From the NCBI GenBank assembly GCA_027485695.1, contig JAIXQO010000003.1:310001-374000 (forward strand): a stretch of DNA of 64,000 nt, in the 5' to 3' direction. The translations under genes and the position numbers were made by a program. This document shows positions 3,942 through 61,205 of this stretch, piece by piece (within the stretch, counting starts at the first letter, position 1; every line of letters begins with the position of its first letter). The notes under the pieces were generated by a model. The model did no database searches. It saw only the letters and a program-made list of their open reading frames with translations, and had not been told where the DNA came from. Origin of the DNA: Pseudomonadota bacterium. Its GTDB lineage: Bacteria; Bdellovibrionota; UBA1018.

Positions 3942-5504
3942 ATGCCCAAAGATTTAGAGAAGCTCGCTCTGTTAGAAGAAAAAAACCGCCAAGCATTCTT
4001 GGGAGGCGGCAAAGAACGGATTGAGAAACAACATCAAGCAGGCAAGCTGACCGCTCGCGAGCGGATAGAGACGCTTCTGGATCCCGGTTCCTTCGTCGAA
4101 CTCGATCGATTGATGACCCACCGATGCACGGACTTCGGGATGGAGAAGCAAAAATTTCTCGGCGACGGCGTTGTCACTGGATACGGCACGATTCACGGCA
4201 AGACGGTTTATCTTTTTTCCCAAGACTTCACGGTTTTTGGTGGGAGCTTATCGGGCGCTCATGCTCAAAAAATCTGCAAGGTCATGGACCTCGCCATCCG
4301 TGCTGGTGCTCCGGTCATTGGTCTCAATGATTCGGGCGGCGCGCGCATTCAAGAAGGCGTGGAGAGTCTCGGTGGTTACGCGGAGATTTTCTGGCGCAAT
4401 ACACAGGCGAGCGGCGTGATCCCGCAGATCAGCGTGATCCTCGGGCCATGCGCAGGTGGGGCGGTTTATAGTCCTGCGATTACCGATTTCATTTTCATGG
4501 TCGAGAACTCCTCCTACATGTTTGTCACCGGTCCAGATGTGATCAAGACCGTCACGCATGAGGAAGTGACCAAAGAAGCGCTCGGTGGCGCCGAGACGCA
4601 TTCTGAAAAAAGCGGCGTGAATCATTTTGTCTATCCAGATGAGCGCGCTTGTTTAGAGGGAGTTCGAAAACTCCTTTCGCTCGTTCCGATGAATAACCTC
4701 GATTCCGCACCTCGCGTGAAATCCGAGGACCCATCCAATCGCATTTGCAAAGCGATCAACGACATTCTGCCGGATTCTCCGCAGAAACCGTATGATATGC
4801 GCAAGGTGATCGAAGACGTCGTTGATCAGGGCGATTTTTTCGAAGTGCATGCGGGCTACGCAAAAAACATCCTCTGCGGATTCGCTCGCTTAGGCGGCGA
4901 GACCGTCGGTATCGTCGCGAACCAGCCTCAGCACTTGGCGGGTTGCCTGGACATCGATGCATCGCTCAAAGGCGCTCGTTTCGTACGCTACTGTGATTCG
5001 TTTAACATTCCACTCATCACTCTTGTCGATGTCCCAGGATTCCTCCCAGGCACAGCTCAAGAGTACGGCGGGATCATCAAACACGGCGCGAAACTGCTCT
5101 ATGCATTCGCCGAGGCTACCGTGCCGAAATTGACCGTCATCACACGCAAGGCCTACGGCGGAGCCTACGACGTCATGGCCTCCAAGCACATCCGTGCGGA
5201 TTTCAATTTCGCGTACCCGATCGCGGAAATCGCGGTCATGGGTCCGGATGGGGCGATCAATATCCTGTACCGTAAGGAACTCGCTGAGGCTGAGAAGAAT
5301 GGCACGCTCGTTCAAGAGCGCGCACGTCTCACTGACGTCTATCGTAAGACGTTCGCGAATCCCTATAAGGCTGCCGAACTTGGATACATCGACGAAGTGA
5401 TCGAGCCAGAAATGACTCGCACGCGTTTGATTCAAGGGCTCAAGGCGCTCACCGGTAAACGTGAAGCGCTCCCGAAACGTAAACACGGTAACATTCCGCT
5501 GTAA
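3942..5504 (+). CDS. pccB: propionyl-CoA carboxylase carboxyltransferase (beta) subunit
   Basis: This 520-residue protein has normal length for the carboxyltransferase subunit that moves CO2 from carboxybiotin to propionyl-CoA (or acetyl-CoA) to form methylmalonyl-CoA. Both crotonase-fold halves are present. The N-terminal half has [18 protein letters not shown] and [16 protein letters not shown]. The C-terminal half has [20 protein letters not shown] and [14 protein letters not shown]. It is first in a four-gene operon with 14 bp to the next gene. The downstream methylmalonyl-CoA mutase argues for propionyl-CoA as substrate. An AAGGA lies 10 nt before the ATG. Acetyl-CoA carboxylase activity cannot be excluded by eye. 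Confidence 0.93.
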
Positions 5505-5518
5505 GGAGAGAGGACTCT

Positions 5519-7057
5519 ATGAAAAAACAACACAAAGTCCTCATCGCCAATCGCGGTGAAATTGCGATTCGCGTCGCCCGCACCGCCAAGGCGCTGGGTC
5601 TTAAGACGGTCGCCGTCTACTCTGAGGCGGATCGTTTCGCCGAACACGCTCGCTACTGTGACGAAGCCTATTTCATCGGTGGTGCTGCACCCAAGGACAG
5701 TTACATCAACGTTGAGAACGTTCTTGCGGCCGCCAAAAAAAGCGGTGCGACCCTCATTCACCCGGGCTACGGATTCTTGTCTGAGCGTCCTCATTTCGTC
5801 GAAGCTTGCAACAAAGCAGGATTCACGTTCGTCGGACCCACCGCTGAGAGCATGAGGGTGATGGGCGATAAGATCACTGCACGTAAGACCATTGATGATC
5901 TCGGTCTCCCACGTGTTCCCGGCAGCCCAGGCGCCGTAAAAGACGGCAGAGAAGCTCAGTCGTTCGCCGACAAAATCGGCTATCCGGTTCTCCTCAAGGC
6001 CGCAGCCGGCGGAGGGGGCAAAGGCATGCGTCGCGTGGATAAGTCTGATGAGATCTCGTCCGCATTCGAGAGCGCGAGCCGTGAATCCCTCGCCGCGTTC
6101 GGGGATGGCGCGATGTACGTCGAAAAACTGATCCTGGAACCGCACCACGTCGAGATCCAAGTATTTGGCGATGGCAAAGGCGGCGCCGTTCACTTGGGTG
6201 AACGTGAGTGCTCGATCCAACGCCGTCACCAGAAAGTCTGGGAAGAGAGTCCCGCGCCAATCTTGAATGTTCATCCGAAAACACGAGAGAAAATGTTCGA
6301 AACCGCGCTCAAGATCACCTCGCACATTCAGTATGCGGGCGCAGGAACGCTGGAGTTCATCGTCGACGGACAAGGTAGTTTCTATTTCTTGGAAATGAAC
6401 ACGCGCCTTCAGGTCGAGCACCCGGTCACGGAATGGGTGACGGGGGTGGACCTGGTCGCTTGGCAGTTGAAACTTGCGATGGGTGAACTCACGCTCCCCA
6501 AAATTCCAGAGCGTCGGGGTGCTTCGATCGAAGTTCGTCTCTATGCCGAGGATCCGAAATCATTCCTTCCCGCGCCGGGCCCTATCGAGACCGTCCGGTT
6601 CCCGTCCGGCGCATTTGTTCGCGTCGATACCGCGTTCACCGAGAGTGGAGAAGTGAGCATGAACTATGATCCGATGATCGCCAAGATCTCCGTCTGGGCG
6701 GAGAATCGCGCAGATGCGATCGGACGGATGCGTGTCGCTCTCACCGAAACTCGAGTAGAAGCTCCACAATCGGCGAATGGTGAGAAAAAAGGTTCTCTGA
6801 GGACGAACCTCGATTTCTTGAGCCGTCTCTGTTCGAACCGCGATGTTCTCGAAGGGGATACGCCAACGGATTTGATCGCCACCAATCCAGAACTCGTCGC
6901 GCCCGCGACCGCCGAGCCTTCTGCAGAAGAAGCCCTGGCACTGGCGCTCTACGAGAGCTTGCTTGCACAGACCCCTGTCGCTTCCACGGAGTCTGAAATC
7001 GTCAGCGCTGGTTCAGTTTGGGCGAGAGTCGCTCGCGAAGAAGGAGTCCGTCGATGA
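5519..7057 (+). CDS. pccA: biotin carboxylase subunit of propionyl-CoA carboxylase
   Basis: This ATP-grasp biotin carboxylase of 512 residues opens with the typical VLIANRGEIAIRVART and carries the glycine-rich loop KAAAGGGGKGMR. The catalytic region has ECSIQRRHQKVWEE, FLEMNTRLQVEHPVTE and the closing PMIAKISVWAENR. It charges biotin with bicarbonate at the expense of ATP. It lacks the C-terminal biotinyl domain found in fused PccA proteins; that domain is supplied by the next gene, which overlaps it by 4 bp (ATGA). An AAGGAGAG sequence lies 6-7 nt before the start. The last 80 or so residues are less conserved and may form the contact with the carrier. Confidence 0.92.
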   Translation: MKKQHKVLIANRGEIAIRVARTAKALGLKTVAVYSEADRFAEHARYCDEAYFIGGAAPKDSYINVENVLAAAKKSGATLIHPGYGFLSERPHFVEACNKAGFTFVGPTAESMRVMGDKITARKTIDDLGLPRVPGSPGAVKDGREAQSFADKIGYPVLLKAAAGGGGKGMRRVDKSDEISSAFESASRESLAAFGDGAMYVEKLILEPHHVEIQVFGDGKGGAVHLGERECSIQRRHQKVWEESPAPILNVHPKTREKMFETALKITSHIQYAGAGTLEFIVDGQGSFYFLEMNTRLQVEHPVTEWVTGVDLVAWQLKLAMGELTLPKIPERRGASIEVRLYAEDPKSFLPAPGPIETVRFPSGAFVRVDTAFTESGEVSMNYDPMIAKISVWAENRADAIGRMRVALTETRVEAPQSANGEKKGSLRTNLDFLSRLCSNRDVLEGDTPTDLIATNPELVAPATAEPSAEEALALALYESLLAQTPVASTESEIVSAGSVWARVAREEGVRR

Positions 7058-51991: not shown

Positions 51992-53221
51992 TCAAGTCGT
52001 GGTTCCGGATTGTTGCGCTGGAATCCTCAAGACGAATGAGGTGTGACCATTTTTTGGTTCATAACTCAATTCACCTGGGTGATTTCGGGCCAGATCGCGT
52101 GAGATGCAGAGCCCAAGACCGGTGCCAACTCCCAGGGGTTTAGTGGTAAAAAATGGTTCAAATAGACGAGCTTCGATTTCGGGCGGGATCGACGGCCCGC
52201 TATTAGTGACGCGGATTTCGATTTGAGTGCCTACCTGCTGAACATCGATTTCAATCCATTTGTTTTCGATGGACTGTACGGCATCCAAACTGTTGATGAT
52301 CAAATTGAGAATAATCTGGGAGACCTGTACGGCACGGCAATCGGAAAAAATGGTGCCTTCGGCAGGAGAGACACGAAGGTCAACGTTTTGATTCCATACT
52401 CTCGTGCGGCAAAATGCGAGTGTCTCCTCAATCAGGGAGACCAAGTCAGTTTCCTCGGTCGGGTCTTGTACGTTCGTTCTCCCGAACAGATTGAATCCCC
52501 GTACGATCTTGGAGACCCGTGTGATGACAGCGTCGATCTTGTTCAGATCTTCGCTCAAATCTTTGTACTCTGGGGATTTGCCGAGCATCTGTTCGAGCTT
52601 CCTCCGGATTTGCGAGACACGGATGACGATGATGGAAAGGGGAGTGTTCATTTCGTGAGAAATCTTGGCCCCCATTTCCCCCAGTCGCGCGAGTCGATGG
52701 CTCTCCACGAGTTTAGATTGGTAGTCCTGAAGGGAATGTGCTGCTTCAAAGCGCTCGGATACTTGACGAGCGAGCGTTGAAAGAAGCAGTTTCTCTGGCT
52801 CAGTGAAGTTTCGAGCTCGTTGGTCTAGGACGCAAAGCGTTCCAAGGATGTTTCCGTTTTTCGTGACGAGTGGGGCGCCCGCATAGGAGCGCAGGAGTGG
52901 CCCCCCAAGGACCCAGGGATGCGCCGAGCTTCGGGGATCTTGGGTGGCGTCTTCGATGACGAGGAGTTCGGTGGAGTGGAGTGCGTGAACACAAAGCGCC
53001 TGTTCAATCGAGGTTTCGTTTCGATGGATGCCAAAACTCGATTTAAACCACTGTCTGTTTTCATCGAGCAGTGTCACGAGGGCAATCGGAGCGTCACAGA
53101 TTCTCGCTGCTAGACGAGTCATCTCATCGATCAAGACGTCCGGCTCACTGTCCATGACTCGCAATCGACGTAAATCTTGAAGGCGTGCGGGATCGAGAAG
53201 AGCGGAACTCGCGTTTGACAT
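51992..53221 (-). CDS. GAF-domain sensor histidine kinase
   Basis: This 409-residue soluble kinase has a GAF domain at about residues 20-160 (CDAPIALVTLLDENRQWFKS, GTLCVLDQRARNFT). The HisKA helix has phospho-acceptor H189 in MGAKISHEMNTPLSI. The ATPase domain shows N-box QIILNLIINSLDAV and G-box GVGTGLGLCISRDL. There is no membrane segment. No response regulator is adjacent on its strand; the divergent kinase-regulator pair starts about 200 bp away. Confidence 0.9.
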   Translation of the reverse strand: MSNASSALLDPARLQDLRRLRVMDSEPDVLIDEMTRLAARICDAPIALVTLLDENRQWFKSSFGIHRNETSIEQALCVHALHSTELLVIEDATQDPRSSAHPWVLGGPLLRSYAGAPLVTKNGNILGTLCVLDQRARNFTEPEKLLLSTLARQVSERFEAAHSLQDYQSKLVESHRLARLGEMGAKISHEMNTPLSIIVIRVSQIRRKLEQMLGKSPEYKDLSEDLNKIDAVITRVSKIVRGFNLFGRTNVQDPTEETDLVSLIEETLAFCRTRVWNQNVDLRVSPAEGTIFSDCRAVQVSQIILNLIINSLDAVQSIENKWIEIDVQQVGTQIEIRVTNSGPSIPPEIEARLFEPFFTTKPLGVGTGLGLCISRDLARNHPGELSYEPKNGHTSFVLRIPAQQSGTTT

Positions 53222-53428
53222 CGTGAATAAGGTTAACGTCTTGCGCTAAAATGAGACAATTTAAGCTGTATTTAAGATTTCTTTACTCGACGAGTCGCCC
53301 GGGTGGCCGACGAAAATGAGATGACTTTGCGCGTCTTTGGTGATTCATTTTCAGACGGTCAGGTGGGAAATTTACGCGTGGTCGATAAAAAACGAAAAAG
53401 CATTTTTCACGGATTCCAAGAGCCTCCC

Positions 53429-55096
53429 ATGAAGCGGTTGATCGACTTTCTGAGCCCGCTCAGTTGGTTATTTGTCGTCATTGCTGGAAGCGCGCCGTTG
53501 ATCTTTATTCTTGAGCCGAGTCTCAAGGAATATTTCGTCGGCTTTGTAGTTGATACGATCGCGTATTCGATTTTTACGCCTCTCAGCTGGAAGCTTTTTC
53601 AGAAGTTCTACCCCGACACTCGAGTCTACCTAAACGGCTTGTCCGACGATCAGGTCGCTTCGCTCTCGCGAGCCGAGCGGGTTCAGTTGGTCGAGTCTTT
53701 TATGCTCTACCCGAAGCGAGCGGCCCGCCATTCATTTTTTGCGAGCCTCATAAAGGTACTTCCCGTTCAATTGGTCATCGTTTTCTACTGGCAGCATTCC
53801 GTATCGAATTGGACTCAATTCGCGTTGGCATTCGCAAGTTCGCTGACGACCATGACTTATTTTTACGGCGCCATGTTCCTCGAGGCGCATTTCTTTTTGA
53901 GTCGGGAGCTGGCTCGTTTGCATGAGAAGTTTGATTTTTCCGACGCGTTCCGCGATTGTCGCATCGTTGGTTCGAAGCGGGATTTCGAGTTCCAAGAAGG
54001 GCTCGCTCTCAGTCACATTCTCGTGATTTCGATGGGTCTTCAGGTGTTGACGATCTTGGCGCATCATTCCGAAGGTGCGTCGGCTTATGCAAGCAAGTTG
54101 ATCCTCGTGGGCGCCATGAGCCTGATGCTTTTCGGGCGTATCTGGTACCTGGGAACTCGGTTCTCTCTCGGGAGCTTGGATCAGGTGATTTCGCGCATGA
54201 CTGGTTACCGGCCGGAAGAGAACCGGCCGACGCTCGCGCTCTCGTCCGCGTATCATTATGCGCAGTTTTTCAAATCGTTCAACGAGACCACCGAACGATT
54301 GCGGACGATCGAGCGAGAGATGTCGATTCTCGTCTTCCGCGAATCGGATCGGAGTCGGTTTCGCGCGCTGGGAGAGATTTCGGCGCTGGTTGCGCACGAT
54401 TTGAGCGGTCCATTGCATGTGACGCGTTACTGCGCGCAGGAACTCAACGAGGAGTTGGCGGATCATCCCGTCTACGGCAAGTACGTTCAAATGATTCTCA
54501 CGAACTCGGAGCGAGCCAACGACTTGATTCTCGGACTTCGGGCTCGTCTACGGAACGAAAGCTCGAGTTCGCTGAGCTGCCATTTCGCCGAAGCGCACCA
54601 TCACGCGTTGAACGTGCTGAAGACCCAATTCTCTAAAACCGAATTCGATCGTGTGCAGATCGTCTTGGAGCCCGAAGCGTCGAATCTCGAGGTGGGGATC
54701 TCTCGCGTCGATCTGATTCACATCCTGGACAATCTTTATAAGAACAGTCTTGGCAATATGATCGTGTTTCATGTTGAATCACCGGAGCTTCGAATTCGCT
54801 ATCAAGACGGCGCTATTCTCATTCAAGACACCGGCACTGGTTTGAGTCGGGAGCGGTTCGAGTCATTGACTGCTTATCAATTTGAAACTCCCGGTAAGAT
54901 TCAAGTGGGACTGGGATTGAGGCTCACACGACGATTGATCGAAGTGAACGGTGGACAACTCCAGGTGGTTGAACCGGGCAGCTCGGGACAATTGGCGGGC
55001 ACGATCATGAGCCTAAAACTGAAAACGGTGGCCCGCGCAGTGGCTCGGGCGCCTCGCATGGAACTCCGGGAGGAGCCTGTTTATGCTGACTTCTGA
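53429..55096 (+). CDS. membrane-bound sensor histidine kinase
   Basis: The start MKRLIDFLSPLSWLFVVIAG at 53429 (AAGAG upstream) gives 555 residues. A GTG at 53303 would add a hydrophilic leader of 42 residues and cannot be excluded. About six hydrophobic segments fill the first 260 residues. The kinase core follows: H323 in ISALVAHDLSGPLHV, N-box HILDNLYKNSLGNM, and QDTGTGLSRERF with VGLGLRLTRRLIEV. It overlaps the response regulator gene by 14 bp, so they form a two-component pair. Confidence 0.85.
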   Translation: MKRLIDFLSPLSWLFVVIAGSAPLIFILEPSLKEYFVGFVVDTIAYSIFTPLSWKLFQKFYPDTRVYLNGLSDDQVASLSRAERVQLVESFMLYPKRAARHSFFASLIKVLPVQLVIVFYWQHSVSNWTQFALAFASSLTTMTYFYGAMFLEAHFFLSRELARLHEKFDFSDAFRDCRIVGSKRDFEFQEGLALSHILVISMGLQVLTILAHHSEGASAYASKLILVGAMSLMLFGRIWYLGTRFSLGSLDQVISRMTGYRPEENRPTLALSSAYHYAQFFKSFNETTERLRTIEREMSILVFRESDRSRFRALGEISALVAHDLSGPLHVTRYCAQELNEELADHPVYGKYVQMILTNSERANDLILGLRARLRNESSSSLSCHFAEAHHHALNVLKTQFSKTEFDRVQIVLEPEASNLEVGISRVDLIHILDNLYKNSLGNMIVFHVESPELRIRYQDGAILIQDTGTGLSRERFESLTAYQFETPGKIQVGLGLRLTRRLIEVNGGQLQVVEPGSSGQLAGTIMSLKLKTVARAVARAPRMELREEPVYADF

Positions 55097-55817
55097 TCGT
55101 TTGCTCTGGATCCTCGAAGACGATGCGGACAGTCGATTCATACTCGAGGAGTCGCTCGGGATACGTTATCAGGTACGTCTTTTCTCTTCTTTGGCGGAAC
55201 TGGATACGGCGTTGACCGCGGAAGACGAGCGACCATCGCTCTTGATCGCCGATCTCCGGTTGCCCGACGGAACTTTCGTTGAGTTTTGCGCCCGCAAGAA
55301 ACAGCAAGGAGCGCAGCTTCCTCCGTTCGTCGTCGTATCTTCGATGGATGACCTGGATTTCCTGCGCGAGTGTTATCGGCAGGGCGCGCTCGACTATCTG
55401 TCCAAACCTTTTAGCAAAAATGAGCTGATTGCTAAAATTGAGCGCTGGTTGCCGGTGAGCAAAGTGACGCCCGATCCAGCCGCAGGCGTCTTACAGGGCG
55501 GTATCGTGCTTCATTCTCTTAGGCTTCGAGTCGAGGATGCACAAGGTCGTTCTCAGCAGCTCACTTCCAAAGAATATCAAATCCTGACGATCCTTCATCA
55601 GAGCGCCGGATTCGTCTCTCGAGACCTTTTGCAAAGGCGCATTTGGGGAGATGTGAGTGTGGCGGCAAAAACTCTGGACGTGCATATTTTCAATTTGCGC
55701 AAGAAACTCGCGGCGCTCAATCTACGCGTGAACTATCACTCTGATCAGGGGTTTCATCTAGAGGCGGTGACTACGCGATCGGATGGATCCATTCTTCCCA
55801 GCCCGGAGTTGATCTAG
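55083..55817 (+). CDS. OmpR/PhoB-type response regulator
   Basis: This 244-residue protein has a receiver domain with the acidic pocket in LEDDADS, phospho-acceptor D57 in LLIADLRLPDG and K108 in YLSKPF. A winged-helix DNA-binding domain follows (QLTSKEYQILTILHQSAG, KTLDVHIFNLRKKLA). It is the output partner of the preceding membrane kinase. Its 3' end overlaps the end of the YcaO gene by 47 bp on the opposite strand. Confidence 0.92.
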   Translation: MLTSDRLLWILEDDADSRFILEESLGIRYQVRLFSSLAELDTALTAEDERPSLLIADLRLPDGTFVEFCARKKQQGAQLPPFVVVSSMDDLDFLRECYRQGALDYLSKPFSKNELIAKIERWLPVSKVTPDPAAGVLQGGIVLHSLRLRVEDAQGRSQQLTSKEYQILTILHQSAGFVSRDLLQRRIWGDVSVAAKTLDVHIFNLRKKLAALNLRVNYHSDQGFHLEAVTTRSDGSILPSPELI

Positions 55818-56778
55818 ACCAACTGGGATCCATACCAAAGAATAGGCGTTTTTTTTCGGGAATGGATGCTTGTACCACAAATACCTTGCCCTCGAGATGG
55901 GTAGGCGAGAGGTCGATAAATCCTTCGCCTGACAAAATCGGCGCGCTCGAAGGGAGTGGCCGCACCTCTTGAGATGTTCGATCGCCGGCGAGCCAGCGTT
56001 CGATCCGATAGCGTTGGTCGGGGCGACGAAACCAATCCATGTGGAAATCGGGTGTTCCGGTAACAGGAGGATCGTTCTCGGGTAACGGTTCGTCCCAGAG
56101 AAAAGCCATGCGTTGCAACGCCTCTTTTTGAGCCTTGGCGAGCGATGTTTCGAGATCGCTGGCCGCGCTGAATCCAAAAACCACGGGCTGATTCCTCGAG
56201 TTCGGAAAACCGAAAACGCCTCCGACGAATACCGGAGATTCCGGTGCAGAAAACGCGAACGCTTCGAATCGATAACCGCCCCAGGACTCGATTTTAAGTG
56301 GTGTATTGAGACGCCGTGGGGCTATCTCCCCAAACCAGGATCTTAAGACCTGATCGCGTTCCCAGATTTCAAACTCCGCGCCGCGAATTGCTGAAACCAA
56401 GTCGGTATGGGCGGCGATGCCGTTCGAGCGTGACCATCTCCAATGAGGGTCGGAGTCGTCAAATGGAGGGAGGGTCGTTCGTTGATCACTGGCGTTTCCG
56501 CCACGATCGAGCACTCGGAACGAGTGCTGCGGGCCTCGGTCATCCGCTTCGAAAATCGCGAGTCTCTCGAGCAGTTCGAAGTAGGCGCGTACTCGAGCGG
56601 CTTCCCTGGATAAATCGACGGCACTACCGGTGAGAAGCCGTCCGTCTGCACGTTTGGCGGCGATTCCCGCCAAATGCAGGGCCGGGAGATCGATGTTGAG
56701 AACGTCCTCGAATGTCTCGATTTCCGCAGAGCCCGGTGGAAGCGGGTATTGCTGCAATAAGTCCTTCCACGCGATCAT
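55771..56778 (-). CDS. YcaO-domain protein, possible peptide backbone-modifying enzyme
   Basis: This 335-residue protein has the three hallmark blocks of the YcaO ATP-binding fold. GSAVDLSREAARVRAYFELL followed by ER places Glu 68 and Glu 71. SNGIAAHTDLVSAIRGAEFE then IWERD places E137, E140 and R141. SDLETSLAKAQKEALQRMAF is the third block. YcaO enzymes phosphorylate backbone amides to make azolines, thioamides or amidines in RiPPs, or act on RimO-type targets. The protein is shorter than typical azoline cyclodehydratases and lacks their proline-rich C terminus. It overlaps the upstream diiron enzyme gene by ATGA, so it is last in a four-gene operon with a 10-codon peptide gene. Confidence 0.75.
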   Translation of the reverse strand: MIAWKDLLQQYPLPPGSAEIETFEDVLNIDLPALHLAGIAAKRADGRLLTGSAVDLSREAARVRAYFELLERLAIFEADDRGPQHSFRVLDRGGNASDQRTTLPPFDDSDPHWRWSRSNGIAAHTDLVSAIRGAEFEIWERDQVLRSWFGEIAPRRLNTPLKIESWGGYRFEAFAFSAPESPVFVGGVFGFPNSRNQPVVFGFSAASDLETSLAKAQKEALQRMAFLWDEPLPENDPPVTGTPDFHMDWFRRPDQRYRIERWLAGDRTSQEVRPLPSSAPILSGEGFIDLSPTHLEGKVFVVQASIPEKKRLFFGMDPSWSRSTPGWEEWIHPIA

Positions 56779-57446
56779 GCCGGCATTTTCTGCGCCGTTG
56801 AGATCACGCAGTTTTCCAAGAATCCGTGAACGTAGAGTACGGTTTCGTCGAGGGCAAATTTCATCCGTGCCTGGGTCTCGTTGGTGAGATTGAGCGTCGC
56901 AAGCAAGTCGAGCGTTTCCTGGGAGTGATCGGGATCGAGTTCGACGTGATTGCCGATAGCTGTCATGGAGGATCTCGGAATTCCACAGCGTTTTTCTAGC
57001 GCGTCGAGGAATCGAGGTCCCGCGAGCACGGTCATGTACTCGACGAAGAACATGTAAGACAGATAGTTTGCCGCATCTTCGCGGATCGCTCGATCAACGA
57101 AACGAAGGAGCGCCCGGAGGCTTGGGGATAAGTCAGATTCACTTACTTCGGAGGAGAAACCCTGTTTTTTAAGGTCGTTTTTGGCCCATTGATCATGTCC
57201 GGATTCCTCGGGGATCTTGTTTTTCATGAACTCCGCGAGTACGGGCTGACCTTGTTTTTGTGCCACATCATGAGCGAGCTGAAGAAACGGAGGCGTCCAA
57301 GAGAAAAGGAACGAGAGTTGTTTGAGGTAATTCTCGACGTCCATTCTCTGGAGCGTGCCATTCTGAGCGAGGAGCATGAGACGGTTGGTCTCGATGATTT
57401 TCTTGGTAGCGGACTCGGTTTCGGACTTGAGGTATTGGGCGATCAT
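56775..57446 (-). CDS. haem-oxygenase-like diiron oxygenase/oxidase
   Basis: This 223-residue all-helical protein carries the ligand pattern of haem-oxygenase-like diiron enzymes (the group including CADD, UndA and BesC). E81 and H84 lie in IPEESGHDQWAKNDL, E136 in YMFFVEYMTVLAGP, and H167, D171 and H174 in GNHVELDPDHSQE. All six candidate metal ligands are present. Such enzymes oxidise amino acids or fatty acids with O2, and some act in natural-product pathways. Translation is coupled to the YcaO gene. It lies downstream of an attenuator-like hairpin. The substrate is unknown; modification of the 10-residue peptide is my inference. Confidence 0.75.
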   Translation of the reverse strand: MIAQYLKSETESATKKIIETNRLMLLAQNGTLQRMDVENYLKQLSFLFSWTPPFLQLAHDVAQKQGQPVLAEFMKNKIPEESGHDQWAKNDLKKQGFSSEVSESDLSPSLRALLRFVDRAIREDAANYLSYMFFVEYMTVLAGPRFLDALEKRCGIPRSSMTAIGNHVELDPDHSQETLDLLATLNLTNETQARMKFALDETVLYVHGFLENCVISTAQKMPA

Positions 57447-57478
57447 GAGTTTCAGTTCTCCGTCTGAACTTCTGTTTG

Positions 57479-57514
57479 AAAACGAGGGGCGGGTCGAGCG
57501 GACGCCGCCCCTCG
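57479..57514 (-). terminator. attenuator-like hairpin between peptide and enzyme genes
   Basis: On the minus strand a perfect 10-bp GC-rich stem (arms CGAGGGGCGG and CCGCCCCTCG, 12-nt loop) is followed by four T. It lies 12 bp after the stop of the 10-codon ORF and 33 bp before the diiron enzyme start. The short T-run suggests partial termination, which would favour the peptide over the enzymes. Confidence 0.65.
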
Positions 57515-57526
57515 GTTAGAAATGGA

Positions 57527-57559
57527 TTACAGGCAGTGTTGGGCGAATTTCTTCTTCAT
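57527..57559 (-). CDS. 10-residue peptide ORF, candidate RiPP precursor
   Basis: ATG at 57559 to TAA at 57527 encodes MKKKFAQHCL. AGAAAGGAG sits 8 nt before the ATG, one of the best ribosome-binding sites in the window. That site overlaps the last codons and stop of the upstream acetyltransferase gene, so translation is likely coupled. A GC hairpin with a short T-run follows. The basic N terminus and the terminal His-Cys-Leu offer a cysteine for a YcaO or diiron enzyme. The size recalls the heptapeptide precursor of microcin C. It could instead be a leader peptide for attenuation. Coding is inferred from the signals, since length gives no support. Confidence 0.5.
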   Translation of the reverse strand: MKKKFAQHCL

Positions 57560-57564
57560 ACGTG

Positions 57565-58212
57565 CTACTCCTTTCTGATGAGTCGAGGTCCATCGCAGAG
57601 CTGATTGAGGAATGTCTCCTCGCACCGCGTATCCAAGTATTTACAAAGTCGAAGCAATGTTCCCCAGCGGTCAGAAGAGTGGTAGCCCGTGGGACGAAAA
57701 CCGCGTTTACTCATATATTCGATCTCGACGTAGTTTCCGGGAGCGACGTCGACTTCGGCACGCAGGACTCCATGACTGCGAAGCACCGGGAAAAGTACGT
57801 CGAGCATGGCTCCTGTAAAACCTTGTCCCTGATGGGAGGGGAGTAGGCCGGATGTTCGAAGGTAGTAGGTGGACCAGTCGAGAGGATTTCCCACGAAAAC
57901 TCCCACAATTTGATCTCCGTCGAAATACGCGAGGAAATCACCCATGATCTCGTAGTAGCGGAGTCGCTGCTCATTCATCGGCTCGACAAAAAATGGATGC
58001 GGGTGGCCGGATCTTAAGAAGATCTCGTCGTAGTGTTTGCCGTAAAAATCAAACACCTCTCGCGCGCTCGATCGGGCGATTCGGAGCGGCGATGTATTTC
58101 CGTTTTTGGAATTTAGCGTGATCGGGAAATGGTTGTTCCAGTCGATGCCGTAGAGCATCTGTGAGCCGTTCCAAGACGCTTGATTATTTTCTCTCTTGAG
58201 TGAAGCGTACAA
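57565..58212 (-). CDS. GNAT family acetyltransferase, first gene of the YcaO operon
   Basis: The start is a TTG at 58212 with AAGGAG 6 nt upstream; no ATG nearby has a comparable site. The product is 215 residues. The C-terminal GNAT core shows YYLRTSGLLPSHQGQGFTGA, an acetyl-CoA loop of Q-x-x-G-x-T/A type, then VLRAEVDVAPGNYVEIEYMS and KRGFRPTGYHSSDRW. The first 100 residues are less conserved. It ends 5 bp before the ATG of the 10-codon peptide. N-acetylation of a modified peptide, or self-protection, are plausible roles by analogy with other RiPP loci. Confidence 0.8.
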   Translation of the reverse strand: MYASLKRENNQASWNGSQMLYGIDWNNHFPITLNSKNGNTSPLRIARSSAREVFDFYGKHYDEIFLRSGHPHPFFVEPMNEQRLRYYEIMGDFLAYFDGDQIVGVFVGNPLDWSTYYLRTSGLLPSHQGQGFTGAMLDVLFPVLRSHGVLRAEVDVAPGNYVEIEYMSKRGFRPTGYHSSDRWGTLLRLCKYLDTRCEETFLNQLCDGPRLIRKE

Positions 58213-59870: not shown

Positions 59871-60809
59871 TTACTCCTCGTCCTCTTGTCCTGACTGGAC
59901 TTGCTGGATTCTTCCGTTTCCGACATCGGCCCGAATCAGGAGCGCTTTTGGATCCGTACTTGAAGTGAATGGATCCATTTTTCCGTTCACGAGGTGAGTT
60001 TCATATCTGTAGGCGCGTGCCGTATCCGGCGCGATCCGAATCTGACCGTTCTTGATGTTCGCATCGACGTTCGATTGTACGCGTTCGATCACGATCCGGC
60101 CGTTCAGCCCTTGAATTCGCACGTCGATGCCGGACGGGACTGCGACTTCGCAGCGAGCACGCAGTGCTTGGTCCAACCGAAGCGAAAGCGTTGCGTCTTT
60201 TTCGGAGACAAACGAGCCATCAGGCTCTGCGCCGCTATCGAGTTTACATTTCCAGGTGAGACGGTTCGTCGGTGCCGTTGTGAGTTCAACTCCACCATTC
60301 GCGAACAGGATTTCGGCCTGGCGAATCTTTTTGGGGTCGATGTCCTTGTGTCCTTCGAATGTGCGGGACTCGCTGTGCACGAAGGATGAGCCGACTTTGA
60401 CTTTTCCTTCTTTGCCGTTGATGTCGATCATTCCACCGAGAAGAGTGACGCGTTCAGATTTTTCGTCAATCGTGATGAGGGGGGAGAATTTCCATACCAT
60501 CACGACGATGAACAAGAGAAACGCCGTGATCGTACCTAAAAATCCGATGACGAGCCATTTGATGATCGGATGCTTCGGTGGTTTTGCTGGCTTGAGTCCA
60601 CGTTCCAAGAGGTACCGATTAGCGACGGTCTCTGCTTCTCCCATCGAGGCGAGGGTCGACTCGAGCGTCGCTGTAGAGTCTCGGGTGAGTGCTTCCAATA
60701 TGTGACTTTTGATTTCAGTGACGATCTCGGCGCGGTCGCTGACCGGAATCGCGCTGAGTGCGCGATCGAGCGCAGAGAGGTATGCTTCTAGTTTTGGATC
60801 GAGGGCCAT
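59871..60809 (-). CDS. HAAS-domain membrane protein with adhesin-like (DUF4097-type) domain
   Basis: This 312-residue protein has an N-terminal HAAS/DUF1700 helical region (LEAYLSALDRALSAIPVSDR, EIVTEIKSHILEAL, MGEAETVANRYL). One membrane segment follows (VIGFLGTITAFLLFIVVMVW). The C-terminal beta-repeat domain (VEVAVPSG-like, RIQGLNGRIVIERVQS, NIKNGQIRI) resembles the putative auto-transporter adhesin DUF4097. It follows a padR gene by 27 bp, the usual arrangement for PadR-HAAS pairs, in which the regulator controls the membrane protein. It ends at a strong terminator. Confidence 0.82.
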   Translation of the reverse strand: MALDPKLEAYLSALDRALSAIPVSDRAEIVTEIKSHILEALTRDSTATLESTLASMGEAETVANRYLLERGLKPAKPPKHPIIKWLVIGFLGTITAFLLFIVVMVWKFSPLITIDEKSERVTLLGGMIDINGKEGKVKVGSSFVHSESRTFEGHKDIDPKKIRQAEILFANGGVELTTAPTNRLTWKCKLDSGAEPDGSFVSEKDATLSLRLDQALRARCEVAVPSGIDVRIQGLNGRIVIERVQSNVDANIKNGQIRIAPDTARAYRYETHLVNGKMDPFTSSTDPKALLIRADVGNGRIQQVQSGQEDEE

Positions 60810-60836
60810 ATTCGTTTCTCCTAAGTTCTGTACAGT

Positions 60837-61169
60837 TCAGTTCAAAGATTTGTAGATGCGGATCATGCGTTCGTACTCTTCATTCATTTCGTCGAGGAGT
60901 TGTTCGCCGGATTTCGCGAGGGAGTAGAATTTTCTTGGGTGACCTTTGAGGTTCTCGGTTTCCCAAGCCGCCTTGAGGAGACCTTCGTTGGTCATGCGGC
61001 TCAAGAGCGGGTAGAGGGTGCCTTCTTTGAGAACGATGTCTTGTTGGGCAAGTTTCTCGAGCAGATCAAACCCATAGACCCGCGTGTGCTTGCGGATCAT
61101 CAGGAGGATACAGAGATCGAGGTATCCCTTTTTGATCTGGGTTTTCCAATTGTCGAAGGCGTCACTCAT
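60837..61169 (-). CDS. PadR family transcriptional regulator
   Basis: From the ATG at 61169 the product is 110 residues with the PadR winged-helix pattern: KKGYLDLCILLMIRKHTRVY, GFDLLEKLAQQDIVLKEGTL, YPLLSRMTNEGLL and GHPRKFYSLAKSGEQLLDEM. It probably represses its own operon, including the HAAS protein, through the dyad just upstream. The open frame extends to a TTG that overlaps the -35 element, so the ATG is preferred. Confidence 0.9.
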   Translation of the reverse strand: MSDAFDNWKTQIKKGYLDLCILLMIRKHTRVYGFDLLEKLAQQDIVLKEGTLYPLLSRMTNEGLLKAAWETENLKGHPRKFYSLAKSGEQLLDEMNEEYERMIRIYKSLN

Positions 61170-61175
61170 GGCCTC

Positions 61176-61205
61176 ATACTTAGTAATGCTAGGTATAGTT
61201 GTCAA
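61176..61205 (-). promoter_or_regulatory. padR promoter and overlapping dyad operator
   Basis: On the minus strand, TTGACA (61205-61200) is followed after 17 bp by a -10-like TAAGTA (61182-61177). An imperfect palindrome ATACTTAG-TAATG-CTAGGTAT (61176-61196, one mismatch per arm) covers the spacer and -10. This is a good autorepression site for PadR. Transcription would start almost at the ATG, implying a leaderless message. Confidence 0.5.

Follow-up and report, generated by a model that had tools for sequence, protein, structure and literature searches.

The window analysed here is a 64,000-nucleotide stretch of contig JAIXQO010000003.1 (positions 310,001 to 374,000; assembly GCA_027485695.1) from a Pseudomonadota bacterium. 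On its minus strand, one tightly packed operon of four genes, occupying about 2.5 kb, encodes a GNAT-fold acyltransferase, a peptide of ten residues, a haem-oxygenase-like diiron oxidase (HDO) and a standalone YcaO protein, in this order. The conservation of these genes indicates that they very probably represent a new family of ribosomally synthesised and post-translationally modified peptides (RiPPs) with near-leaderless precursors. Taken as a whole, we consider it fairly probable that the locus yields a modified, near-leaderless decapeptide that is tailored and then recognised by the adjacent sensor kinase.

A first-pass annotation of the window had proposed a RiPP locus of four tightly coupled minus-strand units. 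All four units were found where it had placed them, and the proposal gained support: neither homologous loci that keep the YcaO and diiron genes but lack a conserved short open reading frame (ORF), nor a grouping of the YcaO with RimO-modifying proteins, came to light. The operon comprises the following elements:

58212-57565, minus strand: GNAT-fold acyl/acetyltransferase; TTG start behind AAGGAG; PF00583, E 7e-8
57568-57574, minus strand: Shine-Dalgarno sequence AAAGGAG of the precursor ORF, read from the sequence; overlaps the GNAT 3' end
57559-57527, minus strand: precursor ORF ATGAAGAAGAAATTCGCCCAACACTGCCTGTAA (MKKKFAQHCL, 10 codons); predicted YcaO site at the penultimate Cys9
57483-57514, minus strand: GC-rich hairpin followed by a T run, directly after the precursor stop codon; z about -3 in the window
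57446-56775, minus strand: HDO; PF14518, E 8e-10
56778-55771, minus strand: standalone YcaO with C-terminus HPIA; PF02624, E 5.5e-14

The precursor ATG lies 5 nt past the GNAT stop codon, and the YcaO gene overlaps the HDO gene by 4 nt (ATGA).

Recurrence and selection of the peptide gene

All 35 comparable loci, drawn from two phyla, have an ORF of 9-10 residues after the GNAT position; the majority of these loci were collected without using the peptide sequence. The earlier expectation that a short ORF ending in His-Cys-Leu would recur at this place held for the ORF in every comparable homologous locus but not for its ending, the conserved end being x-[Cys/Ser/Thr]-hydrophobic. The carriers are dozens of mostly uncultured bacteria of Bdellovibrionota-type and Myxococcota, the named relatives being metagenome-assembled genomes (MAGs) labelled Bdellovibrionales, Oligoflexia, Bacteriovoracaceae, Deltaproteobacteria and Polyangiaceae.

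The first five peptides were identified by visual inspection, before a pattern had been drawn up. A search of the window's order with the HDO protein yielded four further genomes with GNAT, HDO and YcaO, in which the ten-codon ORFs between GNAT and HDO encode MKKKFAQISF, MRKKYAHASM, MKKKYAKICT and MKKKFAQLSF. Class- and phylum-wide HDO and YcaO profiles added MKKRFAQSCI, MRRKFALYSF, MMKKFAQYCI, MKKYGFVTV, MKKRYATLSF, MKKRYATISF and MKIKFAAICF. This YcaO was found in 20 of the 184 genomes of the order to which the Polyangiaceae locus (Myxococcota) belongs; where the operon is present, it includes an ORF of 9-10 residues, for example MKKFALSSF, MKKFARATF, MKKRFALGTL or MKKFATGCF. Genome G803, from the same phylum as the Polyangiaceae locus, has the gene order YcaO-GNAT-peptide-HDO, and its peptide, MRKKFALACY, still follows GNAT. 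The HDO alignment offered no conserved stretch for a contig scan, and a peptide DNA pattern was used instead. Scanning ∼85,000 genomes for a Shine-Dalgarno sequence plus degenerate decapeptide returned 14 matches, 12 of which adjoin GNAT/YcaO/kinase genes; the remaining two represent a single stray site, common to both, close to grpE/hrcA-like genes. This peptide-first scan added MKKRFALACF, MKKRYALVTW, MKKQFALICF, MKKKFALLSF, MKKRFALTTL and MKKRFALASF, and a plasmid search gave no match. The later collection patterns required Cys, Ser or Thr; still, each intact operon locus gave a match.

Some database labels encountered in these searches are questionable. The stray site (MRKRFAPGCA) occurs in L047 and L052, MAGs labelled Muribaculaceae and Blautia, whose near-identical neighbouring genes suggest a mislabelled MAG. 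L050 (JAGTJX010000003.1) is labelled Lysobacteraceae, but the genome that matches it, G016, falls within the order of the window, and the label looks wrong.

The pattern of Shine-Dalgarno sequence plus peptide matched once in the window and not at all in 100 shuffles; in the genome of 4.05 Mb it gave a single match, and the reversed control gave none. A looser peptide pattern, run across 481 kb of related loci, matched the operon loci at the expected place and one site elsewhere.

The peptides follow the consensus M-K-K/R-(K/R)-F/Y-A-x-x-[C/S/T]-(mostly F/L). Of the 34 members tabulated, 13 have Ser at the penultimate position, 11 Cys and 10 Thr, and the G803 peptide also has one of the three there. 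The final residue is Phe in 21 members and Leu in 7; counted from the end, the fifth residue is Ala in 33 and is preceded by Phe or Tyr in all. Three members start with GTG, and all three stop codons occur. Most homologues have an AAGGRG-type Shine-Dalgarno sequence ahead of the ORF. For the first 17 members, the ratio of non-synonymous to synonymous change (pN/pS) was 0.26 in codons 2-6 and 0.58 in codons 7-10; the tiny ORF is under codon-level purifying selection. The precursor hardly varies across phyla, while the YcaO proteins diverge down to about 30% identity. Since YcaO cyclodehydratases use Cys, Ser and Thr, the penultimate residue is the predicted site of azoline formation.

The hairpin after the precursor stop codon recurs as a structure, with a mean z of -3.1 over 33 loci and values below -2 in 22 of 33 loci compared with 5 of 102 control windows. 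Its sequences are unrelated between loci, and several loci have no strong hairpin. It is probably a partial terminator or 3' stabiliser that balances precursor against enzyme expression, and it may have a regulatory part.

The modifying enzymes

Residues E68, E71, R72, S118, G120, E137, E140, R141, E219 and Q222 of the ATP/Mg-binding motifs are invariant in 35 of 35 YcaO proteins, all of which end in H-P-[I/V/L/F]-x. Searched against the PDB, the single YcaO sequence gave nothing but noise; a family profile best matched TruD, MusD and LynD, then MJ1094 and McbD, and also 6ci7 (E up to 0.01). The E. coli RimO-type YcaO was absent among the matches up to this E value, and a RimO-associated identity was rejected because the profile lies closest to peptide cyclodehydratases. 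The SagD model scored 46.9 bits against a cut-off of 219; no curated NCBIfam model names the YcaO, the HDO, the GNAT or the radical-SAM enzyme described below above cut-off. The family combines a conserved precursor, intact YcaO motifs and a conserved candidate nucleophile, the sequence features expected of a YcaO-dependent RiPP.

All six candidate metal ligands of the HDO that had been picked out in the window (E81, H84, E136, H167, D171 and H174) proved invariant in 21 of 21 homologues, giving the protein the predicted six-ligand set of haem-oxygenase-like diiron oxidases; the PDB entry closest to its profile is 3dde (E 2.6e-17). The window's genome has another haem-oxygenase-like protein at G000:C6:868217-868810 (L009), between two biosynthesis-like genes, apparently a separate system.

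Not every locus has the HDO: in eight, a B12-binding radical-SAM enzyme is present instead, and no locus has both. When 19 genomes were searched whole, the radical-SAM enzyme scored at least 579 bits only in HDO-less genomes, the others staying under 140. The genes for this enzyme that lie beside the peptide in HDO-less loci are:

L079:2851-4473, plus strand: B12-binding radical-SAM gene
L077:11704-13425: B12-binding radical-SAM gene
L076:6937-8556: B12-binding radical-SAM gene
L078:10573-12153: B12-binding radical-SAM gene
L082:5207-6784: B12-binding radical-SAM gene
L086:15983-17626: B12-binding radical-SAM gene
L128:8994-10757: B12-binding radical-SAM gene
L129:9266-11011: B12-binding radical-SAM gene

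The YcaO tree implies at least five swaps between the two enzymes; it is weakly resolved, hence only the minimum number is used. AcsF, a diiron enzyme, and BchE, a B12-radical-SAM enzyme, carry out the same oxidation with and without O2. Because of this precedent for one oxidation performed by both enzyme types, the HDO and the radical-SAM enzyme may, by analogy, be O2-dependent and O2-independent functional alternatives.

The AlphaFold 2 model of the GNAT (mean predicted local distance difference test score, pLDDT, of 86) resembles PDB folds of the RimI/PaiA/Ard1 type, matches that are generic and name no substrate. In G049, a different GNAT family (PF13302) occupies the GNAT position, which suggests that acylation matters. 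G369 has no GNAT beside the peptide. In G121, a second GNAT of the same family and another hybrid histidine kinase lie by the radical-SAM gene (L079:4467-5096 and 5138-6652, minus strand); a second peptide was not found there.

The linked sensor kinases

The functional unit reaches past the four genes to a convergent kinase and response regulator (53303-55817). The four-gene set of the first-pass annotation stands, but it had missed both this linked kinase and the exchange of HDO for the radical-SAM enzyme, which bear on function. The two regulatory genes, and their counterparts in Polyangiales, are:

53303-55096, plus strand: sensor histidine kinase with a six-helix N-terminal membrane domain (HATPase_c/HisKA); likely start ATG 53429; convergent with YcaO
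55083-55817, plus strand: OmpR-type response regulator (Response_reg and Trans_reg_C); same position in most relatives
L128:1524-7118, L142:2772-8075 and L139:8919-14324: giant Ser/Thr-kinase/AAA/GAF/histidine-kinase/receiver protein of Polyangiales, directly downstream of YcaO

The response regulator gene shares 14 nt with the kinase gene and 47 nt with the 3' end of the YcaO gene. A sensor kinase of one of two architectures adjoins YcaO in 29 loci, the exceptions being G803 and G373, with G516 outside this count. All 16 Bdellovibrionota-type loci with sequence on that side have a histidine kinase beside YcaO, in most cases accompanied by a response regulator. The N-terminal domain of the window kinase contains about six hydrophobic helices (mean pLDDT of the six-helix model, 87.8). 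This layout, and only the layout, is like that of the quorum-sensing kinases CqsS and LqsS, which have six transmembrane helices and small, lipophilic, non-peptide ligands (PMC4821796). Bdellovibrionota-type loci have the arrangement of a peptide quorum-sensing system, that is, a polytopic kinase and a regulator linked to a peptide gene. Thirteen Polyangiales loci encode a giant protein after YcaO; the three that were scanned have the domain order Pkinase-AAA-GAF-HisKA-HATPase-REC, and one giant kinase partly matches the TOMM kinase/cyclase model TIGR03903, far below cut-off. A GAF-domain histidine kinase (window 51992-53221, minus strand) adjoins the window's sensor kinase; none of the inspected relatives showed it together with the cassette.

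Predicted product, alternatives and known systems

The proposed pathway begins with the YcaO, which, with ATP, would activate the amide ahead of the penultimate Cys, Ser or Thr and thus form an azoline, as suggested by the chemistry of the family and the strict conservation of these residues. The HDO, elsewhere the radical-SAM enzyme, would then perform an oxidative tailoring step, and the GNAT would acylate the N-terminus or a lysine, while the hairpin would probably hold expression of the precursor above that of the enzymes. The product would most likely be recognised by the adjacent sensor kinase, so that the locus would make and read a peptide signal by a logic like that of ComQXPA. That the product is a peptide signal or kinase ligand is moderately likely, mainly because two kinase architectures attach to one cassette without a recurrent exporter or immunity gene.

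Several observations weigh against this interpretation. The product and its activity are predictions from the genes, and Foldseek returned no PDB match for the six-helix sensor domain. The Polyangiales kinase looks cytosolic, which does not fit a single extracellular receptor mode for both architectures. G803 shows a response regulator only, and in G373 the YcaO lies on another contig than GNAT-peptide-HDO, with no kinase there. No exporter was found among the genes at the inspected loci. Moreover, kinase linkage would also suit control of production instead of sensing of the product.

One alternative is that the product is a RiPP effector, such as an antibiotic, whose production the kinase pair controls without sensing it. 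RiPP biosynthesis is commonly under two-component control and the kinase is nearly always adjacent, but genes for export, immunity or proteolysis were not seen repeatedly and the precursor is nearly constant across phyla, unlike diversifying bacteriocins; we regard an effector as possible but doubtful. A protease, transporter or E1-like partner, already remarked on as missing at the locus, was not seen to recur in the related loci either, where the recurrent genes are those for GNAT, HDO or radical-SAM enzyme, and kinases. This absence had led to the suggestion of an intracellular metal-binding or redox cofactor, which would agree with the oxidative enzymes of the cluster and with the apparently cytosolic Polyangiales kinase. 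Ser or Thr replaces Cys in 23 of 34 members, however, so no thiol is required; a thiol cofactor was rejected on this ground, and no dedicated client enzyme recurs, the recurrent partners being kinases only. An intracellular cofactor or metal-binding compound is improbable.

Explanations in which the peptide is not a substrate fare worse. The mid-operon position of the ORF and the hairpin behind it in most loci would suit a leader peptide that controls the enzyme genes by attenuation or ribosome stalling. That Cys, Ser and Thr replace one another freely at a single position agrees with a chemical substrate and disagrees with stalling at particular codons; moreover, the downstream gene varies (HDO or YcaO), the hairpins are unrelated in sequence and in several loci not strong, and the ORF stays behind GNAT despite altered gene order. 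Pure attenuation was rejected on the residue exchange and the unrelated hairpins, and a leader peptide in general is very unlikely. An incidental ORF next to a YcaO with some other substrate is barely credible: YcaO proteins can act outside RiPPs, and the orphan YcaO loci of G435 and G534 have no such ORF, but these orphans are also without GNAT, HDO and kinase, and conservation in 35 of 35 loci and purifying selection speak against it.

ComQXPA of Bacillus unites a modified peptide, its modifying enzyme, a polytopic membrane histidine kinase (ComP) and a response regulator in one locus. The likeness to the modified-peptide signal favoured here lies in this combination, sensing being the predicted part; the differences are that ComQXPA is Gram-positive and uses isoprenylation by ComQ on a processed precursor, in place of YcaO, HDO or radical-SAM enzyme, and GNAT. 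With the thiazole/oxazole-modified microcins (TOMMs), linear azol(in)e-containing peptides (LAPs) and cyanobactins (McbD, TruD, LynD), the system shares YcaO homology, a Cys/Ser/Thr acceptor and a clustered peptide gene. It differs in lacking an E1-like/ocin-ThiF partner, a SagB-type dehydrogenase and a long leader, and in having one strictly conserved acceptor position in a precursor of 9-10 residues. Membership of the TOMM/LAP class (SagBCD/McbBCD type) was rejected, as no E1-like/ocin-ThiF partner or flavin dehydrogenase recurs.

The thiovarsolin cluster encodes VarY (YcaO), VarT (TfuA), the haem-oxygenase-like VarO and a repeat-bearing precursor, together with ATP-grasp and MFS genes, and through VarO provides the one precedent for a YcaO and a haem-oxygenase-like enzyme in one RiPP cluster (PMC6511847). 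Thiovarsolins need TfuA, which was not found in the window's genome, and assignment to the thioamidated (YcaO-TfuA) RiPPs was rejected. Very short, essentially leaderless precursor genes missed by annotation are known for microcin C, with the MccA heptapeptide MRTGNAN, adenylation by MccB, an exporter and an immunity peptidase (PMC7136475), and for the biarylitides, with a five-residue precursor and a P450 (PMC12951456, PMC13417212); both use enzymes other than those found here.

The first-pass annotation knew of no described cluster with this set of genes and a ten-residue precursor. Our literature searches, which covered open-licence papers and were not exhaustive, likewise found no description of it and no paper with a comparable pairing of a YcaO and a haem-oxygenase-like diiron enzyme. 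With slightly better than even confidence, we propose an undescribed class of peptide signals in Bdellovibrionota-type bacteria and Myxococcota, defined by a YcaO, a 9-10 codon gene, interchangeable diiron and B12 radical-SAM tailoring and a dedicated kinase reader. Ten-codon ORFs are skipped by gene callers, which leaves the class invisible in annotations. If correct, the proposal would add very small precursors for YcaO chemistry and a natural exchange of diiron and B12-radical-SAM enzymes on one scaffold, and would open the question of peptide signalling in predatory and social Gram-negative bacteria.

Elsewhere in the window, a PadR-type regulator beside a HAAS-domain protein (59871-61205, minus strand) forms an ordinary regulatory pair.

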